Shown here: positions 4,647 through 9,304 of the stretch, one piece after another | How positions within the stretch are numbered: the stretch's first letter is position 1 | Layout: each line of letters opens with the position of its first letter | Origin: Flavobacterium lacustre | GTDB taxonomy: Bacteria; Bacteroidota; Bacteroidia; Flavobacteriales; Flavobacteriaceae | DNA: 64,000 bases | Assembly (NCBI RefSeq): GCF_027474525.2 | Contig: NZ_CP114882.2 | Coordinates: 1,984,001 to 2,048,000 of the forward strand | Direction: 5' to 3' | Notes under the pieces: generated by a model | Seen by the model: the letters and a program-made list of their open reading frames with translations, nothing else | Databases searched by the model: none | Told to the model about the DNA's origin: nothing | Translations under genes and position numbers: made by a program

Positions 4647-6575
4647 TTAGTCTCTTCTTGGTCTTCTTGGTCTTGGTGCATCACCAAAGCTTTCTGAACG
4701 TCTTGGGGCTCTTTCAGATGAACCTTCAGTTCTTGGTCTGTCAGATGTAAAACCACCTTCTCTTCTTGGAGCAGATCCTCTGTCGCTTCTGAAACCACCT
4801 TCTCTTGGAGCTGAATTTCTATCACTTCTAAAACCGCCTGAACCCTCTCTTCTTGGAGCAAAATTTCCTTCTCTTCTTGGAGCAGAACTTCTTCCACCTC
4901 CAAAACTTCCACCAGAACTTCTTCCGTTATGATCACGTCTTCCGCCACCGTCATTTTTAGAAATTTCAACATTGATACGACGTCCTTCTAATTGTACGTT
5001 GTTCAATATTTCCATTACTTTATCGGTATGTTCAGGGTCTGTGTTGAAGAAAGAGAAACCTTCTTTTACGTCTACTTTGAAAACGTCATCACGACCTAAG
5101 TCTAATGTTTCTTTCAAGTAATCTTTCAATGACATCCAGTCGAAGTTGTCTCTTGAACCAATGTTTACAAAATATCTTGTAGCACCGCCATTGTTGTTTT
5201 CTCTTGGAGCACCATCTCTATCGTCACGGTCACGTCTTTCAGAACCTGAAGATTGAGAAGAGATATCTCTTGTTTTTTTGTAGTAATTGATAAAACGATT
5301 AAATTCTACCGATACCATTTTCTTGATTAATTCTTCTTTAGATAAACCTTCAAGTACACTATTGATTGCTGGAAGATAATTGTCAATTTCATGATCAACT
5401 TCAGTATCCTTAATTTTATTAGCTAAGTGTAATAATTGGATTTCGCAGATTTCAATTCCAGAAGGGATTGTTTTTTCTTCGAATTTTTGTTTGATAATTC
5501 TTTCTATTGAAGAAATTTTACGGATTTCGCTTTTAGTAACGATAACAATAGAAGTTCCTAATTTACCGGCACGACCTGTACGACCAGAACGGTGATTGTA
5601 CGTTTCGATTTCGTCAGGAAGTTGATAGTTTACTACGTGAGTAATATTATCAACGTCAATTCCACGAGCAGCAACATCAGTAGCTACAAGCATTTGGATT
5701 TGGCGACCTCTAAAAGATTTCATAACACCATCACGTTGTGCTTGAGATAAATCTCCGTGCAAAGCGGCAGCGCTGTATCCATCTTCAATTAATTTTTCAG
5801 CTACAGCTTGTGTGTCTCTTTTGGTACGACAGAAAACTACTGAGAAAATGTCTGGATTTGCATCTGCTAAACGTTTCAAAGCTTCGTAACGGTCACGTGC
5901 ATTTACAAGGTAAAATTCGTGAGAAACCGTTGCGGAACCTGAATTTTTAGCTCCAACTGTAATTTCAATTGGGTCTTTCATGAATTGTTTTCCAATTCGT
6001 GCAACCTCTGCTGGCATCGTAGCCGAGAATAACCATGTGTTTTTTTCGTCTGGCGTTGTAGAAAGGATGTTCACGATATCTTCGTAGAACCCCATGTTCA
6101 ACATTTCGTCAGCTTCGTCAAGAATACAAAAACTAATTTGAGAAATGTTTACCAAGCCTCTATTAATCATGTCTTGCATTCTTCCTGGAGTTGCTACAAT
6201 AATTTGTGCGCCTCTCTTTATGTCTCTCGCTTGTTCTGTAATGCTAGCTCCACCGTAAACTGCTACCACATTAATACCTTTTTCGTATTTAGAGTAGTTT
6301 TTAATTTCGTTGGTAATCTGCAAACAAAGTTCACGTGTTGGAGATAAAATTAATGCTTGTGTATTCCTGTTGTTGGCATCAATTTTCTGGATAACTGGAA
6401 AACCAAATGCTGCCGTTTTCCCTGTCCCTGTCTGAGCCAACGCAACCATATCTGTGTCTTTTTCCAATAATAGGGGAATCGCTTTCTCCTGTACTTCGGT
6501 CGGATTCTCAAATCCTAGATCTAAAATCGCCTTCAGTAACGATTCACTCAATCCTAATTGTTCAAATTTATTCAT
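4647..6575 (-). CDS. DEAD-box ATP-dependent RNA helicase (CsdA/DeaD-like)
   Basis: A 642-residue helicase that probably unwinds structured RNA in ribosome assembly or cold adaptation. All core motifs are present: Q-motif near the N-terminus (FEQLGLSESLL), AQTGTGKT, PTRELCLQ, DEAD, SAT, ARGIDV and HRSGRTGRAG. A C-terminal RNA-binding DbpA-like domain (around residues 470-560) is followed by a ~90-residue Arg/Gly/Ser tail built from repeated APRREG / GFRSDR units. I start at the ATG at 6575 (MNKFEQLG) rather than the longer frame opening at 6599. A -7 box (6597-6604) overlaps that upstream codon, and homologues begin at MNKFE. It is probably monocistronic. Confidence 0.95.
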   Translation of the reverse strand: MNKFEQLGLSESLLKAILDLGFENPTEVQEKAIPLLLEKDTDMVALAQTGTGKTAAFGFPVIQKIDANNRNTQALILSPTRELCLQITNEIKNYSKYEKGINVVAVYGGASITEQARDIKRGAQIIVATPGRMQDMINRGLVNISQISFCILDEADEMLNMGFYEDIVNILSTTPDEKNTWLFSATMPAEVARIGKQFMKDPIEITVGAKNSGSATVSHEFYLVNARDRYEALKRLADANPDIFSVVFCRTKRDTQAVAEKLIEDGYSAAALHGDLSQAQRDGVMKSFRGRQIQMLVATDVAARGIDVDNITHVVNYQLPDEIETYNHRSGRTGRAGKLGTSIVIVTKSEIRKISSIERIIKQKFEEKTIPSGIEICEIQLLHLANKIKDTEVDHEIDNYLPAINSVLEGLSKEELIKKMVSVEFNRFINYYKKTRDISSQSSGSERRDRDDRDGAPRENNNGGATRYFVNIGSRDNFDWMSLKDYLKETLDLGRDDVFKVDVKEGFSFFNTDPEHTDKVMEILNNVQLEGRRINVEISKNDGGGRRDHNGRSSGGSFGGGRSSAPRREGNFAPRREGSGGFRSDRNSAPREGGFRSDRGSAPRREGGFTSDRPRTEGSSERAPRRSESFGDAPRPRRPRRD

Positions 6576-6596
6576 ATGTATTTTTAAAATAGGGTG

Positions 6597-6604
6597 CAAA
6601 ATTA
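6597..6604 (-). promoter_or_regulatory. Putative -7 box of the helicase promoter
   Basis: The reverse complement reads TAATTTTG (TAnnTTTG). Transcription would begin about 15-18 nt before the ATG at 6575, which excludes the upstream start at 6599. No clear -33 element is visible. Confidence 0.5.
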
Positions 6605-6779: not shown

Positions 6780-7358
6780 TTATTTTTTCTTTTTCAAAAA
6801 AGAAATTAGTAGTTGTGTTGCTTTTCCTCTGTGACCAATTTTATTTTTCATTTCTAATAGCAATTGTGCAAAGGTTTCTGAAAATCCTTCTGGTTGAAAA
6901 ATGGGGTCATAACCAAATCCTTGATTTCCTGTTTTTTTCAATGTGATTTCACCTCTTACAATTCCAGTAAAAAGTTCTTGTTCGCCATTCAGATTTAAAG
7001 CAATTACTGTTTTGAATTGTGCTTTTCTATTGGTTTTATTTGATAAAGCATCTAATAATTTGCTCATATTATCATCAGCATTGCGTTGTTCTCCTGCATA
7101 ACGAGCGGAAAATACGCCAGGTTCACCATCTAAGGAATCTACTTCCAGTCCGGTATCATCAGCAAAGCAATCAAATCCATACTTTTGGGTCACATAATTG
7201 GCTTTCAATATGGCGTTTCCTTCAATAGTATCGGCTGTTTCCGGAATATCTTCGATGCAACCAATATCTTCTAAACTCAAAATTTTGATGCTTTCCGGCA
7301 ACATACTTTGTATTTCCAGAATTTTATTTTTGTTATTGGAAGCGAAAACGAGTTGCAT
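6780..7358 (-). CDS. rdgB: Non-canonical purine NTP pyrophosphatase (RdgB/HAM1)
   Basis: A 192-residue cytosolic house-cleaning pyrophosphatase that hydrolyses ITP, dITP and XTP to keep deaminated purines out of DNA and RNA. Family signatures are SNNKNKILEI at the N-terminus, TIEGNAILKA, ADDTGLEVDSLDGEPGV with the ARYAGE substrate segment, GYDPIFQPEG, and FAQLLLEMKNKIGHRGKA near the C-terminus. Length matches E. coli RdgB (197). A consensus-like promoter lies 26 bp upstream. Confidence 0.95.
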   Translation of the reverse strand: MQLVFASNNKNKILEIQSMLPESIKILSLEDIGCIEDIPETADTIEGNAILKANYVTQKYGFDCFADDTGLEVDSLDGEPGVFSARYAGEQRNADDNMSKLLDALSNKTNRKAQFKTVIALNLNGEQELFTGIVRGEITLKKTGNQGFGYDPIFQPEGFSETFAQLLLEMKNKIGHRGKATQLLISFLKKKK

Positions 7359-7383
7359 TTTTTGAATTTTGAATTAGACTTTT

Positions 7384-7417
7384 CAAAAATACATTTTTTT
7401 TGTCTATTTCGCAGCAA
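7384..7417 (-). promoter_or_regulatory. Putative rdgB promoter
   Basis: On the minus strand TTG (rc of 7415-7417) precedes TATTTTTG (rc of 7384-7391) by 23 nt, at the long end of the flavobacterial TTG-N17-23-TAnnTTTG range. It predicts a leader of about 20 nt. Confidence 0.5.
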
Positions 7418-7556
7418 TATAACAAAGACCCGCCGAGTCGCGTGTTATATAGAGAATTGTATGGTTCATCTTTAATATATGAAATCAATGCGTTAATAAT
7501 TAGTTAAACTATTGTTTATCAGTATTTTGAATATATTTAAATTGTATCTTTGAGTG

Positions 7557-7693
7557 TGGTTTTGATTCATCAATTGGATTTCAATATCTGCAAAGAGAGG
7601 AATATTCAAATAGTCAATTTTATCGAAAGGTAGCGTTGATAATGGTAAATCAGAATTAACAATTGGAGGCCTGTAATAAGGCCTCCTTTTTTT
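7557..7693 (+). ncRNA. Small RNA, tandem copy 1
   Basis: The transcript is inferred from a TATCTTTG -7 box (7545-7552) and a strong terminator (GGAGGCC 7665-7671 / GGCCTCC 7680-7686, seven Ts). The predicted fold is a closing stem GGTTTTGATT (7558-7567) with AATCAGAATT (7648-7657), an internal imperfect hairpin (AATTG...TTT...AATAT with ATATT...AAA...CAATT) and a short hairpin TTATC (7620-7624) / GATAA (7638-7642). That makes a three-way junction. No open frame spans the unit: the conserved ATGGTA is followed by a stop after five codons. It is not a family I can name with confidence. Confidence 0.8.
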
Positions 7694-7813
7694 GTTTTAT
7701 TTTTAAGATGTAGTGCTATAATTGAATTAGGATATTAAAAATCAATGTGTTAATAATTGGTTAAACTATTGTTTATCAGTATTTTGAATATGATTTTATC
7801 GTATCTTTGAGTG

Positions 7814-7950
7814 TGGTTTTGATTCATCAATTGGATTTCAATATCTGCAAAGAGAGGAATATTCAAATAGTCAATTTTATCGAAAGGTAGCGTTGATAAT
7901 GGTAAATCAGAATTAACAATTGGAGGCTTTTAAAAAGGCCTCCTTTTTTT
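7814..7950 (+). ncRNA. Small RNA, tandem copy 2
   Basis: Sequence-identical to copy 1 from the -7 box (7802-7809) through the left terminator arm (7927). The terminator loop then differs (GGAGGC-ttttaaaaa-GGCCTCC) while the right arm and T-run are unchanged. The upstream block at 7750-7765 carries one substitution. The near-identity indicates recent duplication or gene conversion between the first two copies. Confidence 0.8.
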
Positions 7951-8070
7951 GTTTTATCCAGAAGTATTGATTTTATAAGATGATTTAATTGCTGAAAATT
8001 AATTTATTAATAATTAGTTAAATATCTGTTTATTAAGTAATTATGTTTGTTTAAATTGTATCTTTGAGTG

Positions 8071-8212
8071 TGGTTTTGATTAATTACTTGAGTTTGTCGG
8101 TCTTGTCAGTAAGACATGGCAGTTCAATAGTCAGCTATACAATTAAAAGTATCAGTTTGATAATGGTAAATCAGAATCAACAACTGGAGGACTATAAAGG
8201 TCCTCCTTTTTT
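8071..8212 (+). ncRNA. Small RNA, diverged tandem copy 3
   Basis: The -7 box is TATCTTTG at 8059-8066. The closing stem is GGTTTTGATT (8072-8081) with AATCAGAATC (8169-8178), where one G-U of copies 1-2 becomes G-C. The central hairpin has a different sequence but similar position: TGTC (8095-8098)/GGCA (8118-8121) enclosing GTCTT (8100-8104)/AAGAC (8111-8115). The short hairpin is TATC (8150-8153)/GATA (8159-8162). The terminator is GGAGGAC/GTCCTCC, a compensated pair change relative to copies 1-2. Conserved structure over changed sequence argues for a functional RNA. Confidence 0.75.
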
Positions 8213-8247
8213 GTTTTTATTTCAGAAAGAACTAATTCTTTTGGATT

Positions 8248-9021
8248 TTAGCTGTAACGCAATCTTACATAAACATGTTTGATTCCTTTTTTATCAGAAT
8301 CTCTTTCGTCTATTTCAAGAAAGTCAGTTAGCGATTTAAGCATTGGAGTTAGTTTATTGAAACCATAATTTCTTGGATCAAATTCCGGTTTTTTCTTAAC
8401 GATTAGGTTTCCTACATCGCCTAAGAACGCCCAGCCGCTATCGTCACCAATATCTTCTATGGTGGCTTCGATAAGTTCAATGGTTTGTAAATCTATTTTA
8501 CTGAGTGATTTTTCAATCGGTTTTTCAACTGGTTTTTTAGTATCTGCGGAACGTTTTGGTAGTTTTTTCTTTATGGCTCCATCTAATACTTCAATGTAAA
8601 TGAATCGGTCGCAGGCTACTATGAATGAATTTGGGGTTTTCTTTTCGCCAATTCCAATTACTTTCATGCCGGATTCCCGCAAGCGAATGGCGAGTCGTGT
8701 AAAATCAGAATCGCTGGAAACAATGCAGAATCCATCAACTTTGTCCGAATATAATAAATCCATGGCATCAATAATCATGGCTGAATCCGAAGAGTTTTTC
8801 CCTACGGTGTAGCTGTATTGCTGAATTGGGGTTATGGCATGTTCTAATAAAACGGATTTCCATCCATTGGCATTTGGTTTTGTCCAATCGGCATAAATAC
8901 GTTTGGTGGTTGGTGTTCCAAATTTGGCAATTTCTTCCATCATTCCTTTGACGTTGCTATATGGAACGTTGTCGGCATCAATAAGGACGGCAAGTTTTAA
9001 TTCTTTGGTATCTTGTGACAT
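8248..9021 (-). CDS. NYN-domain / OST-HTH (LOTUS) protein, probable RNase
   Basis: A 257-residue protein of the LabA/MARF1-like type. Residues ~8-150 form a NYN (PIN-like) nuclease domain with the acidic residues expected for metal binding: VLIDADN (D15, D17), SSDSAMIID (D79, D85) and SSDSDF (D104, D106). A Lys/Pro-rich linker follows, then an OST-HTH/LOTUS domain (~180-257, with FDPRNYGFNKLTPMLKSL) thought to bind RNA. It is likely an RNA-cleaving or RNA-binding regulator. It faces the end of the tandem sRNA array and has its own promoter (9041-9069). Confidence 0.88.
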   Translation of the reverse strand: MSQDTKELKLAVLIDADNVPYSNVKGMMEEIAKFGTPTTKRIYADWTKPNANGWKSVLLEHAITPIQQYSYTVGKNSSDSAMIIDAMDLLYSDKVDGFCIVSSDSDFTRLAIRLRESGMKVIGIGEKKTPNSFIVACDRFIYIEVLDGAIKKKLPKRSADTKKPVEKPIEKSLSKIDLQTIELIEATIEDIGDDSGWAFLGDVGNLIVKKKPEFDPRNYGFNKLTPMLKSLTDFLEIDERDSDKKGIKHVYVRLRYS

Positions 9022-9040
9022 ATAAATAGTGTTCAGTAAT

Positions 9041-9069
9041 CAAATGTACAAAGTTTCTTGATAAAACAA
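9041..9069 (-). promoter_or_regulatory. Promoter of the NYN gene
   Basis: Minus-strand TTG (rc of 9067-9069), an 18-nt spacer, then TACATTTG (rc of 9041-9048). This matches TTG-N17-23-TAnnTTTG and predicts a leader of about 15 nt. Confidence 0.6.
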
Positions 9070-9072
9070 CTG

Positions 9073-9217
9073 CCTAGCCCTGATAGAAATGGAAATCCTT
9101 TTTTTGAGAAAAGCTATTTTTTCCTGACTTTGCGGAACGACCAACGGAAGTTCCTGCAAAGTCTTGGAAAAAAAGATTTTATGAAAAAAGATTGCAATGA
9201 AGAGCAGGAAATAGCTA
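9073..9217 (+). other. Long structured intergenic element (GACCAAnGGAA-loop family), copy 1
   Basis: The outer stem is AGC-CCTG (left end) with CAGG-aaata-GCT (right end). A middle stem pairs AAT-c-CTTTTTT with AAAAAAG-ATT. The apical stem is GACTTTGC (9126-9133)/GCAAAGTC (9156-9163) plus GGAAC/GTTCC, closing an 11-nt loop GACCAACGGAA. A second copy with covarying stems lies at 38054-38192 on the other strand. I recall similar elements scattered between genes in Flavobacterium, but could not check this. A 67-codon TTG-initiated frame across it is not a gene. Confidence 0.65.
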
Positions 9218-9262
9218 TTGAAAATAAATTTGCTTTCAAGACTATAATAAATTATAAATAAT

Positions 9263-9270
9263 TATTTTTG
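9263..9270 (+). promoter_or_regulatory. Putative -7 box of the alpha-oxoamine synthase gene
   Basis: TATTTTTG lies 34 bp before the ATG at 9305. No -33 TTG is found at the usual distance. Confidence 0.4.
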
Positions 9271-9304
9271 CAACTTCTTAAAAAATATAATACTTCAATA
9301 TATT

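Follow-up and report, generated by a model that had tools for sequence, protein, structure and literature searches.

In the genome of Flavobacterium lacustre, which is a single contig of 3.45 Mb, we found three promoter-RNA-terminator units on the + strand between rdgB and a NYN-LOTUS gene, and their arrangement suggests a signal-controlled set of regulatory RNAs. The units lie in the 64,000-nucleotide stretch that we analysed (contig positions 1984001-2048000; hereafter the window). We consider it probable that they belong to a genus-specific, multicopy family of small RNAs (sRNAs) that is driven by a response regulator and whose variable arms pair with mRNAs in trans. The family, its structure, its promoter element, its arrays, its synteny and its subtypes are all drawn from sequence comparison. 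The RNA family is absent from the Rfam 15 catalogue at gathering score; covariation supports it, and its promoter element suggests control by a two-component system. The sRNA circuits of this phylum have received little study, and the three units form a compact locus for probing sRNA control in Flavobacterium.

Three promoter-RNA-terminator units in the window

Three such units had been claimed in a preliminary description of this DNA, and we were able to locate all of their elements at exact positions in the window. In unit 1, a direct-repeat box (GTTAA-N6-GTTAAA with an 11-bp period, 7492..7508), which is a putative response-regulator site, stands upstream of a -7 box (TATCTTTG, 7545..7552); TAnnTTTG is the -7 consensus for Bacteroidetes. 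The sRNA of unit 1 extends over 7555..7692 (76.2 bits), with the RNA start motif at 7555 and a 5' end predicted from the promoter, and it closes with an intrinsic terminator at 7665..7692. In unit 2, the direct-repeat box is at 7749..7765, the -7 box TATCTTTG at 7802..7809, the sRNA at 7812..7949 (start motif at 7812; 76.2 bits) and the intrinsic terminator at 7922..7949. Unit 3 has a box with one mismatch, A for the first G (ATTAA-N6-GTTAAA, 8006..8022), followed by the -7 box TATCTTTG at 8059..8066, an sRNA at 8069..8212 (start motif at 8069; 102.1 bits) and an intrinsic terminator at 8186..8212. All of these features are on the + strand.

The units repeat one another in blocks. A 100-nt block of promoter and 5' sequence is present three times at spacings of 257 and 257, and a 71-nt 3' block is present three times at spacings of 257 and 264, the latter because unit 3 is longer inside. 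An exact 257-bp period had been described for the trio; it holds for the promoter elements of all three window units but is not a period kept elsewhere. In the arrays that we found across the genus with R1, a covariance model built from 14 copies, adjacent copies are mostly 201-364 bp apart, with six gaps of 560-3,476 bp, some of which arise from weaker copies there that were detected later. Because copy spacings vary across arrays, 257 bp is no family constant, and the equal spacing in the window would be the expected outcome of unequal crossing-over between copies.

Units 1 and 2 match at 94% over 226 nt in the direct-repeat comparison, their RNA cores are identical (106/106 nt), and from box to terminator they agree at 195/204 positions. 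Between unit 3 and units 1 and 2, inner identity is 0.51 and closing-stem identity 0.92. The centre of unit 3 had been read as diverged, and unit 3 does differ inside; however, it is unit 3 that has the form common to other species. The best identity to another genome is 0.86 for unit 3 and 0.72 for units 1 and 2. Judged by these identities, unit 3 is the old form and units 1 and 2 are a recent pair.

On one side the units have a conserved divergent neighbour, rdgB (6780..7358, - strand), which encodes the non-canonical purine NTP diphosphatase, and on the other a convergent gene for a NYN + OST-HTH/LOTUS protein (8248..9021, - strand), possibly an RNA-binding nuclease. A DEAD/DbpA helicase gene lies beyond rdgB (4647-6599, - strand). 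A Flavo-1 RNA (RF01705, 58.9 bits, with a long insert) is present at 9072-9215 on the + strand, flanked by the NYN-LOTUS gene and a gene resembling serine palmitoyltransferase, and Flavo-1 is found beside that same gene in loci L084, L087, L088 and L090 as well.

The preliminary description could not name the family and proposed an Rfam search, which left the family without a name. With Rfam 15 at gathering score, we found no family at any of the units in the window and in 20 of the 73 loci that we fetched; the sole match in the window and these 20 loci was Flavo-1, outside the units. Matches to Prevotella-2, CncR1 and Phe_leader were set aside, being sub-threshold and not common to the two stretches tested at relaxed thresholds. 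We also rejected 6S RNA, as neither RF00013 nor RF01685 matches at the units. In the host genome as a whole, RF00013 has no match, and 6S-Flavo (RF01685) is found at contig positions 1933424-1933530, outside the window, with 82 bits, just under the curated cut-off of 85. 6S-Flavo and Flavo-1 are likewise structured RNAs of Flavobacteria; the former lies elsewhere in the genome, and the latter is a separate element. Searches of open-access PMC listed no paper that deals with a tandem family of sRNAs in Flavobacterium.

RNA fold and covariation

The RNAs are predicted to fold into a three-way junction, made of a closing stem (P1) and two hairpins (P2 and P3), that is followed by the terminator. 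In unit 1 (+ strand), P1 pairs 7557-7572 with 7643-7658, P2 occupies 7574-7609, and P3, which has a GAAA loop, occupies 7613-7640. Of the fold proposed earlier, the conserved structure with its closing stem and terminator stands, but the arrangement is really a three-way junction. Two sequence changes that had been pointed out, a compensated terminator pair and a G-U to G-C change in the closing stem, are both present in the window units. Compared with dinucleotide shuffles, the folding energies of units 1, 2 and 3 have z values of -4.73, -3.87 and -4.33, and 0, 0 and 1 of 200 shuffles, respectively, fold as well. On both strands of 7300-9300 there are 6 terminator-like sites, as compared to 1.3 ± 1.3 in shuffles.

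A cross-genome alignment had been proposed as a check on the fold, and the one that we made gave covarying pairs above shuffles. We aligned 134 matches (129 distinct) to R1, which yields an alignment fitted to the structure. In this model alignment, both partners are changed in one or more sequences for 29 of 36 pairs, and there are 276 double-change cells as compared to 107 ± 8 when shuffled. The fraction of cells that are paired is 87.4%, as compared to 81.4% when shuffled and 32-58% when the partners are slid, and the covariation score is 0.286, as compared to 0.191 when shuffled and at most 0.091 when slid. In the middle of P2, 62% of cells are paired.

The second alignment was made with MAFFT from 14 copies without structure, and the structure tested on it was drawn from the folds of those same sequences. 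Here the covariation score is 0.208 as compared to 0.158 in shuffles (reached in 0/500) and at most 0.108 with partners slid, double-change cells number 22 as compared to 9.8 (0/500), and 88.3% of cells are paired as compared to 85.2% (0/500). The number of pairs with a double change is modestly raised (10 as compared to 6.7; 16/500), and pair types in these 14 copies are no higher than chance (191/500 shuffles as high). Compensatory base changes are clear in the model alignment and in three of the five measures in the MAFFT alignment. Taken together, the two alignments make for a well supported fold, P1 and P3 being better supported than the middle of P2. A terminator, read as a hairpin and then a T run, is found at the end of 125 of 133 copies.

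Distribution, neighbours and arrays

By BLASTN, we found matches in 17 of 60 genomes, host included, some of them short and weak. R1 gave 127 matches in 66 of 299 genomes of the genus (host included), with one copy in 38 of these genomes and two to seven in the other 28. A second covariance model, R2, matched in 89 of 398 genus genomes, again with the host included, and gave no match in 309, which leaves the family not evidently genus-wide. The genome scans with R1 and R2 used stricter filters, and these counts are lower bounds; two loci that R1 missed, L013 and L012, score 47.3 and 39.5 bits with unfiltered R2. When 299 genomes from 236 genera were drawn from the whole family, a set that includes at least one further genome of the host's own genus, the host alone was positive under the stricter filters and none of the other 298 matched. 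In the named collection, matches to the strict pattern fell on 18 contigs that are mostly titled Flavobacterium, and F. granuli and F. frigoris are among the carrier species. There was no match in phage records, and IMG/VR viral contigs held no match to the strict pattern. Homologues within the genus, covariation, terminators and a conserved promoter all speak for the earlier claim of a functional structured RNA, as far as sequence can. One contig of 10,024 bases that carries a locus (L069/L087) is titled as a Klebsiella pneumoniae MAG, but a contig of equal length belongs to a genome placed in the host's genus, and the title looks misbinned or mislabelled.

The neighbourhood of the RNA is also conserved. 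The fetched flank includes rdgB in 54 of the 73 loci, on the strand opposite to the RNA in 54/54, and the NYN gene in 30 of the 73, on the opposite strand in 30/30. In 55 of 65 genomes, at least one locus has rdgB or the NYN gene in that flank; the remaining loci are second sites or other places. Away from rdgB, copies in three genomes (L101, L114, L115 and L116) adjoin a common gene of 169 aa (cluster c10), and this neighbourhood may mark a second conserved site. Another common gene, cluster c7, lies upstream of seven shorter copies that are also away from rdgB (95-98 nt matched; L118, L125, L134, L136, L137, L139 and L141).

We compared the copies of 13 arrays that have at least three copies each (57 copies, window included). 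In all 13 arrays, the copy farthest from rdgB is closest to a copy of another genome; in 11 of these arrays, the copy that it matches is likewise the last of its array or stands alone. For 25 of the other 44 array copies, too, the nearest copy is in another genome; for the remaining 19 it is not. For 27 of the 57 copies, identity to another genome is at least 0.80 and exceeds that to the best array mate by at least 0.10, and 15 of 107 within-array pairs have an inner identity of at least 0.9. These cross-species matches and near-identical mates indicate that the arrays mix old shared subtypes with recent amplification. Over the same 107 pairs, mean within-array identity is 0.77 for P1 as compared to 0.59 for the inner part. 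In draft genomes, contig ends fall a few hundred bases or less from some copies (L098, L107, L112, L115, L119, L120 and L131), and arrays are therefore probably undercounted there.

Promoter element, proposed control and rival explanations

Upstream of the copies we found a direct repeat, GTTAA-N6-GTTAA, which has an 11-bp period and is usually followed by A. Of 132 copies, 100 carry the repeat without mismatch, and in 98 of those it lies no more than 5 bases from a common position; the other 32 have one (14 copies), two (16) or three (2) mismatches. For each alternative spacing in the range 2 to 13, we counted 0-5 copies. Among the 100 exact copies, 93 have 36-38 nt between the box and the -7 box. 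Because this count starts from the motif, we re-aligned the copies on the -7 box alone (131/132). In the resulting profile, with one copy per locus (72) and background frequencies assumed, both repeats carry 0.7-1.4 bits/base, the stretch upstream is mostly below 0.2 bits/base, and there is a weak third repeat in phase.

A 61-nt promoter pattern allowing up to 3 mismatches matches the three units alone in the host genome, and its reversed control gives 0 matches. With a shorter strict pattern, we obtained 42 exact matches in 199 genus genomes (reversed control, 2). Judged by their positions, 35 of these matches belong to RNA copies identified by R1 or R2, and in one of the 35 (G092) the TAnnTTTG is internal to the RNA start. 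The other 7 are elsewhere, and unfiltered R2 finds no RNA at these seven. The strict promoter form thus appears almost only before these RNAs.

The box resembles an OmpR/PhoB-type response-regulator site. Such 11-bp direct repeats are typical of OmpR-type regulators but not exclusive to them, which counts against the regulator assignment. For comparison, CiaR is described as binding TTTAAG-N5-TTTAAG before csRNA genes (PMC3091779), and the frequent site given for ArcA is GTTAATTAAATGTTA (PMC12584642). An OmpR-type DNA-binding domain is present in five genes of the host genome; read from their translations, four of them resemble full response regulators, and the fifth a membrane-bound protein. 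In an NCBIfam scan of three of the five, one came nearest to RprY, at 283 bits as compared to a curated cut-off of 370.

On this evidence the family would belong with the multicopy sRNAs that are driven by response regulators, its own link to a regulator being putative. As in the CiaR and LisR systems, there are several homologous sRNA genes per genome (three in the window, and at least two in 28 of 66 genomes), and they share an 11-bp direct repeat upstream of the promoter. Unlike LhrC, which has an Rfam entry, the Flavobacterium family is without any Rfam match at gathering score. The LhrC1-5 RNAs of Listeria monocytogenes are described as multicopy siblings under one response regulator, LisR (PMC5880928). 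In Streptococcus, as described for the CiaR csRNAs (PMC3091779), each of several sRNA genes is preceded by an 11-bp direct repeat that the response regulator binds, whereas binding to the Flavobacterium box is putative; the csRNAs belong to another phylum, there is no evidence of common descent, and the Flavobacterium units, unlike the csRNAs as described, are often in head-to-tail arrays. The FopS RNAs of Bacteroides thetaiotaomicron, in the same phylum, are a multicopy family of 14 members with marked promoter motifs, and the word 'tandem' is absent from the main text that describes them (PMC11697453). FopS RNAs consist of a single-stranded 5' stretch and a terminator (PMC11697453), whereas the Flavobacterium RNAs form a three-way junction, and we rejected FopS membership on this ground.

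In the reading that we favour, each unit would be a gene of some 140 nt, equipped with a promoter and a terminator of its own. An OmpR/PhoB-type response regulator would bind GTTAA-N6-GTTAA and activate all copies together, so that they answer to one signal. Each RNA would then fold into the P1-P2-P3 three-way junction and end at the intrinsic terminator, and the variable P2 and P3 arms may pair with mRNAs in trans, with the more constant P1 as a scaffold. We infer transcription, the regulator, pairing in trans and the existence of targets; the regulator step draws on the promoter evidence and the pairing step on analogy with CiaR-csRNA, LisR-LhrC and FopS. Array subtypes that are kept across species suggest different targets, and recently made copies that are almost identical, units 1 and 2 among them, would raise dosage. 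A further, tentative idea is that of a diversifying array under response-regulator control, in which promoter, terminator and P1 are held while P2 and P3 of tandem paralogues diverge into subtypes kept across species; one signal would then command a repertoire of RNAs with different targets.

The main rival, which we consider unlikely, is that the RNAs bind a protein, as a decoy, a 6S-like RNA or a scaffold, with no mRNA pairing and with tandem copies that tune dosage. The closing stem and the junction strands are most conserved while both hairpin arms vary, P3 has GNRA-type loops (GAAA in units 1 and 2), and genes for RNA-active proteins (NYN-LOTUS and DEAD/DbpA helicase) are nearby, all of which would suit protein binding; however, subtypes kept across species, as in the 27 of 57 copies above, fit distinct partners better than one protein, and the 6S-like form is disfavoured by the lack of an RF00013 match in the host genome and by an RF01685 match that falls outside the window. 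A different proposal, compatible with our main reading, is that the family is Rfp18, a published sRNA of F. psychrophilum, or another Rfp RNA, and we regard this as possible, if rather doubtful. Compared by description, Rfp18 is likewise a structured intergenic sRNA conserved in the genus: it is reported as an RNA with strong structure and wide conservation in the genus that is not antisense and is predicted to pair through its third stem-loop, and in stationary phase its deletion left less mRNA of two metalloproteases (PMC9723704). Neither an array nor a promoter box figures in that description, however, and the 18 contigs that match the strict pattern include none from F. psychrophilum. In four one-contig genomes, dxs lies at about 1.02, 0.31, 2.32 and 1.34 Mb, as compared to 356 kb in the Rfp18 account (PMC9723704), a comparison from which we draw nothing about identity. 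If Rfp18 is the same family, the RNA would already have been described in one species and linked to metalloprotease mRNA levels.

We find it very improbable that the units are a non-functional repeat, either MITE-like or a by-product of recombination, that folds by chance. Tandem copies and the contig breaks near copies in draft genomes would be expected of such a repeat, but the compensatory changes, the conserved promoter and terminator, the strand opposite to rdgB in every one of the 54 loci that have it, and the absence of matches in phage records and, with the strict pattern, in viral contigs argue against it. A cis-acting leader or a peptide-coding transcript is hardly to be expected either. 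Against it stand the terminator at the end of each window unit and the convergent orientation of the next gene. Short ATG frames in some copies could favour this reading, but complete ATG frames inside the RNA range from none to 32 codons without a common length, and we rejected the coding reading because the copies have no common frame.

Returning to the favoured reading of response-regulator control, we also looked at boxes away from the units. When the pattern is relaxed to allow 30-44 nt between the box and TAnnTTTG, the host genome has 8 matches, 6 of them off the units (reversed control, 0); reading frames were listed for four of the six (L153, L155, L158 and L159). Two of the six have the box at family spacing: L158 (contig positions 2196436-2196496; 37 nt) is before a TetR-like gene, and L159 (2936678-2936737; 36 nt) is before an MBL-fold/rhodanese-looking gene. 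At the remaining sites off the units, the distance to the -7 box is 32-42 nt. Since L158 and L159 place the box at family spacing elsewhere, the regulator may have further targets. Among the strict matches in the genus genomes, seven are away from RNA copies, and three of these (L165, L176 and L179) precede genes that look TetR-like when read from their translations.
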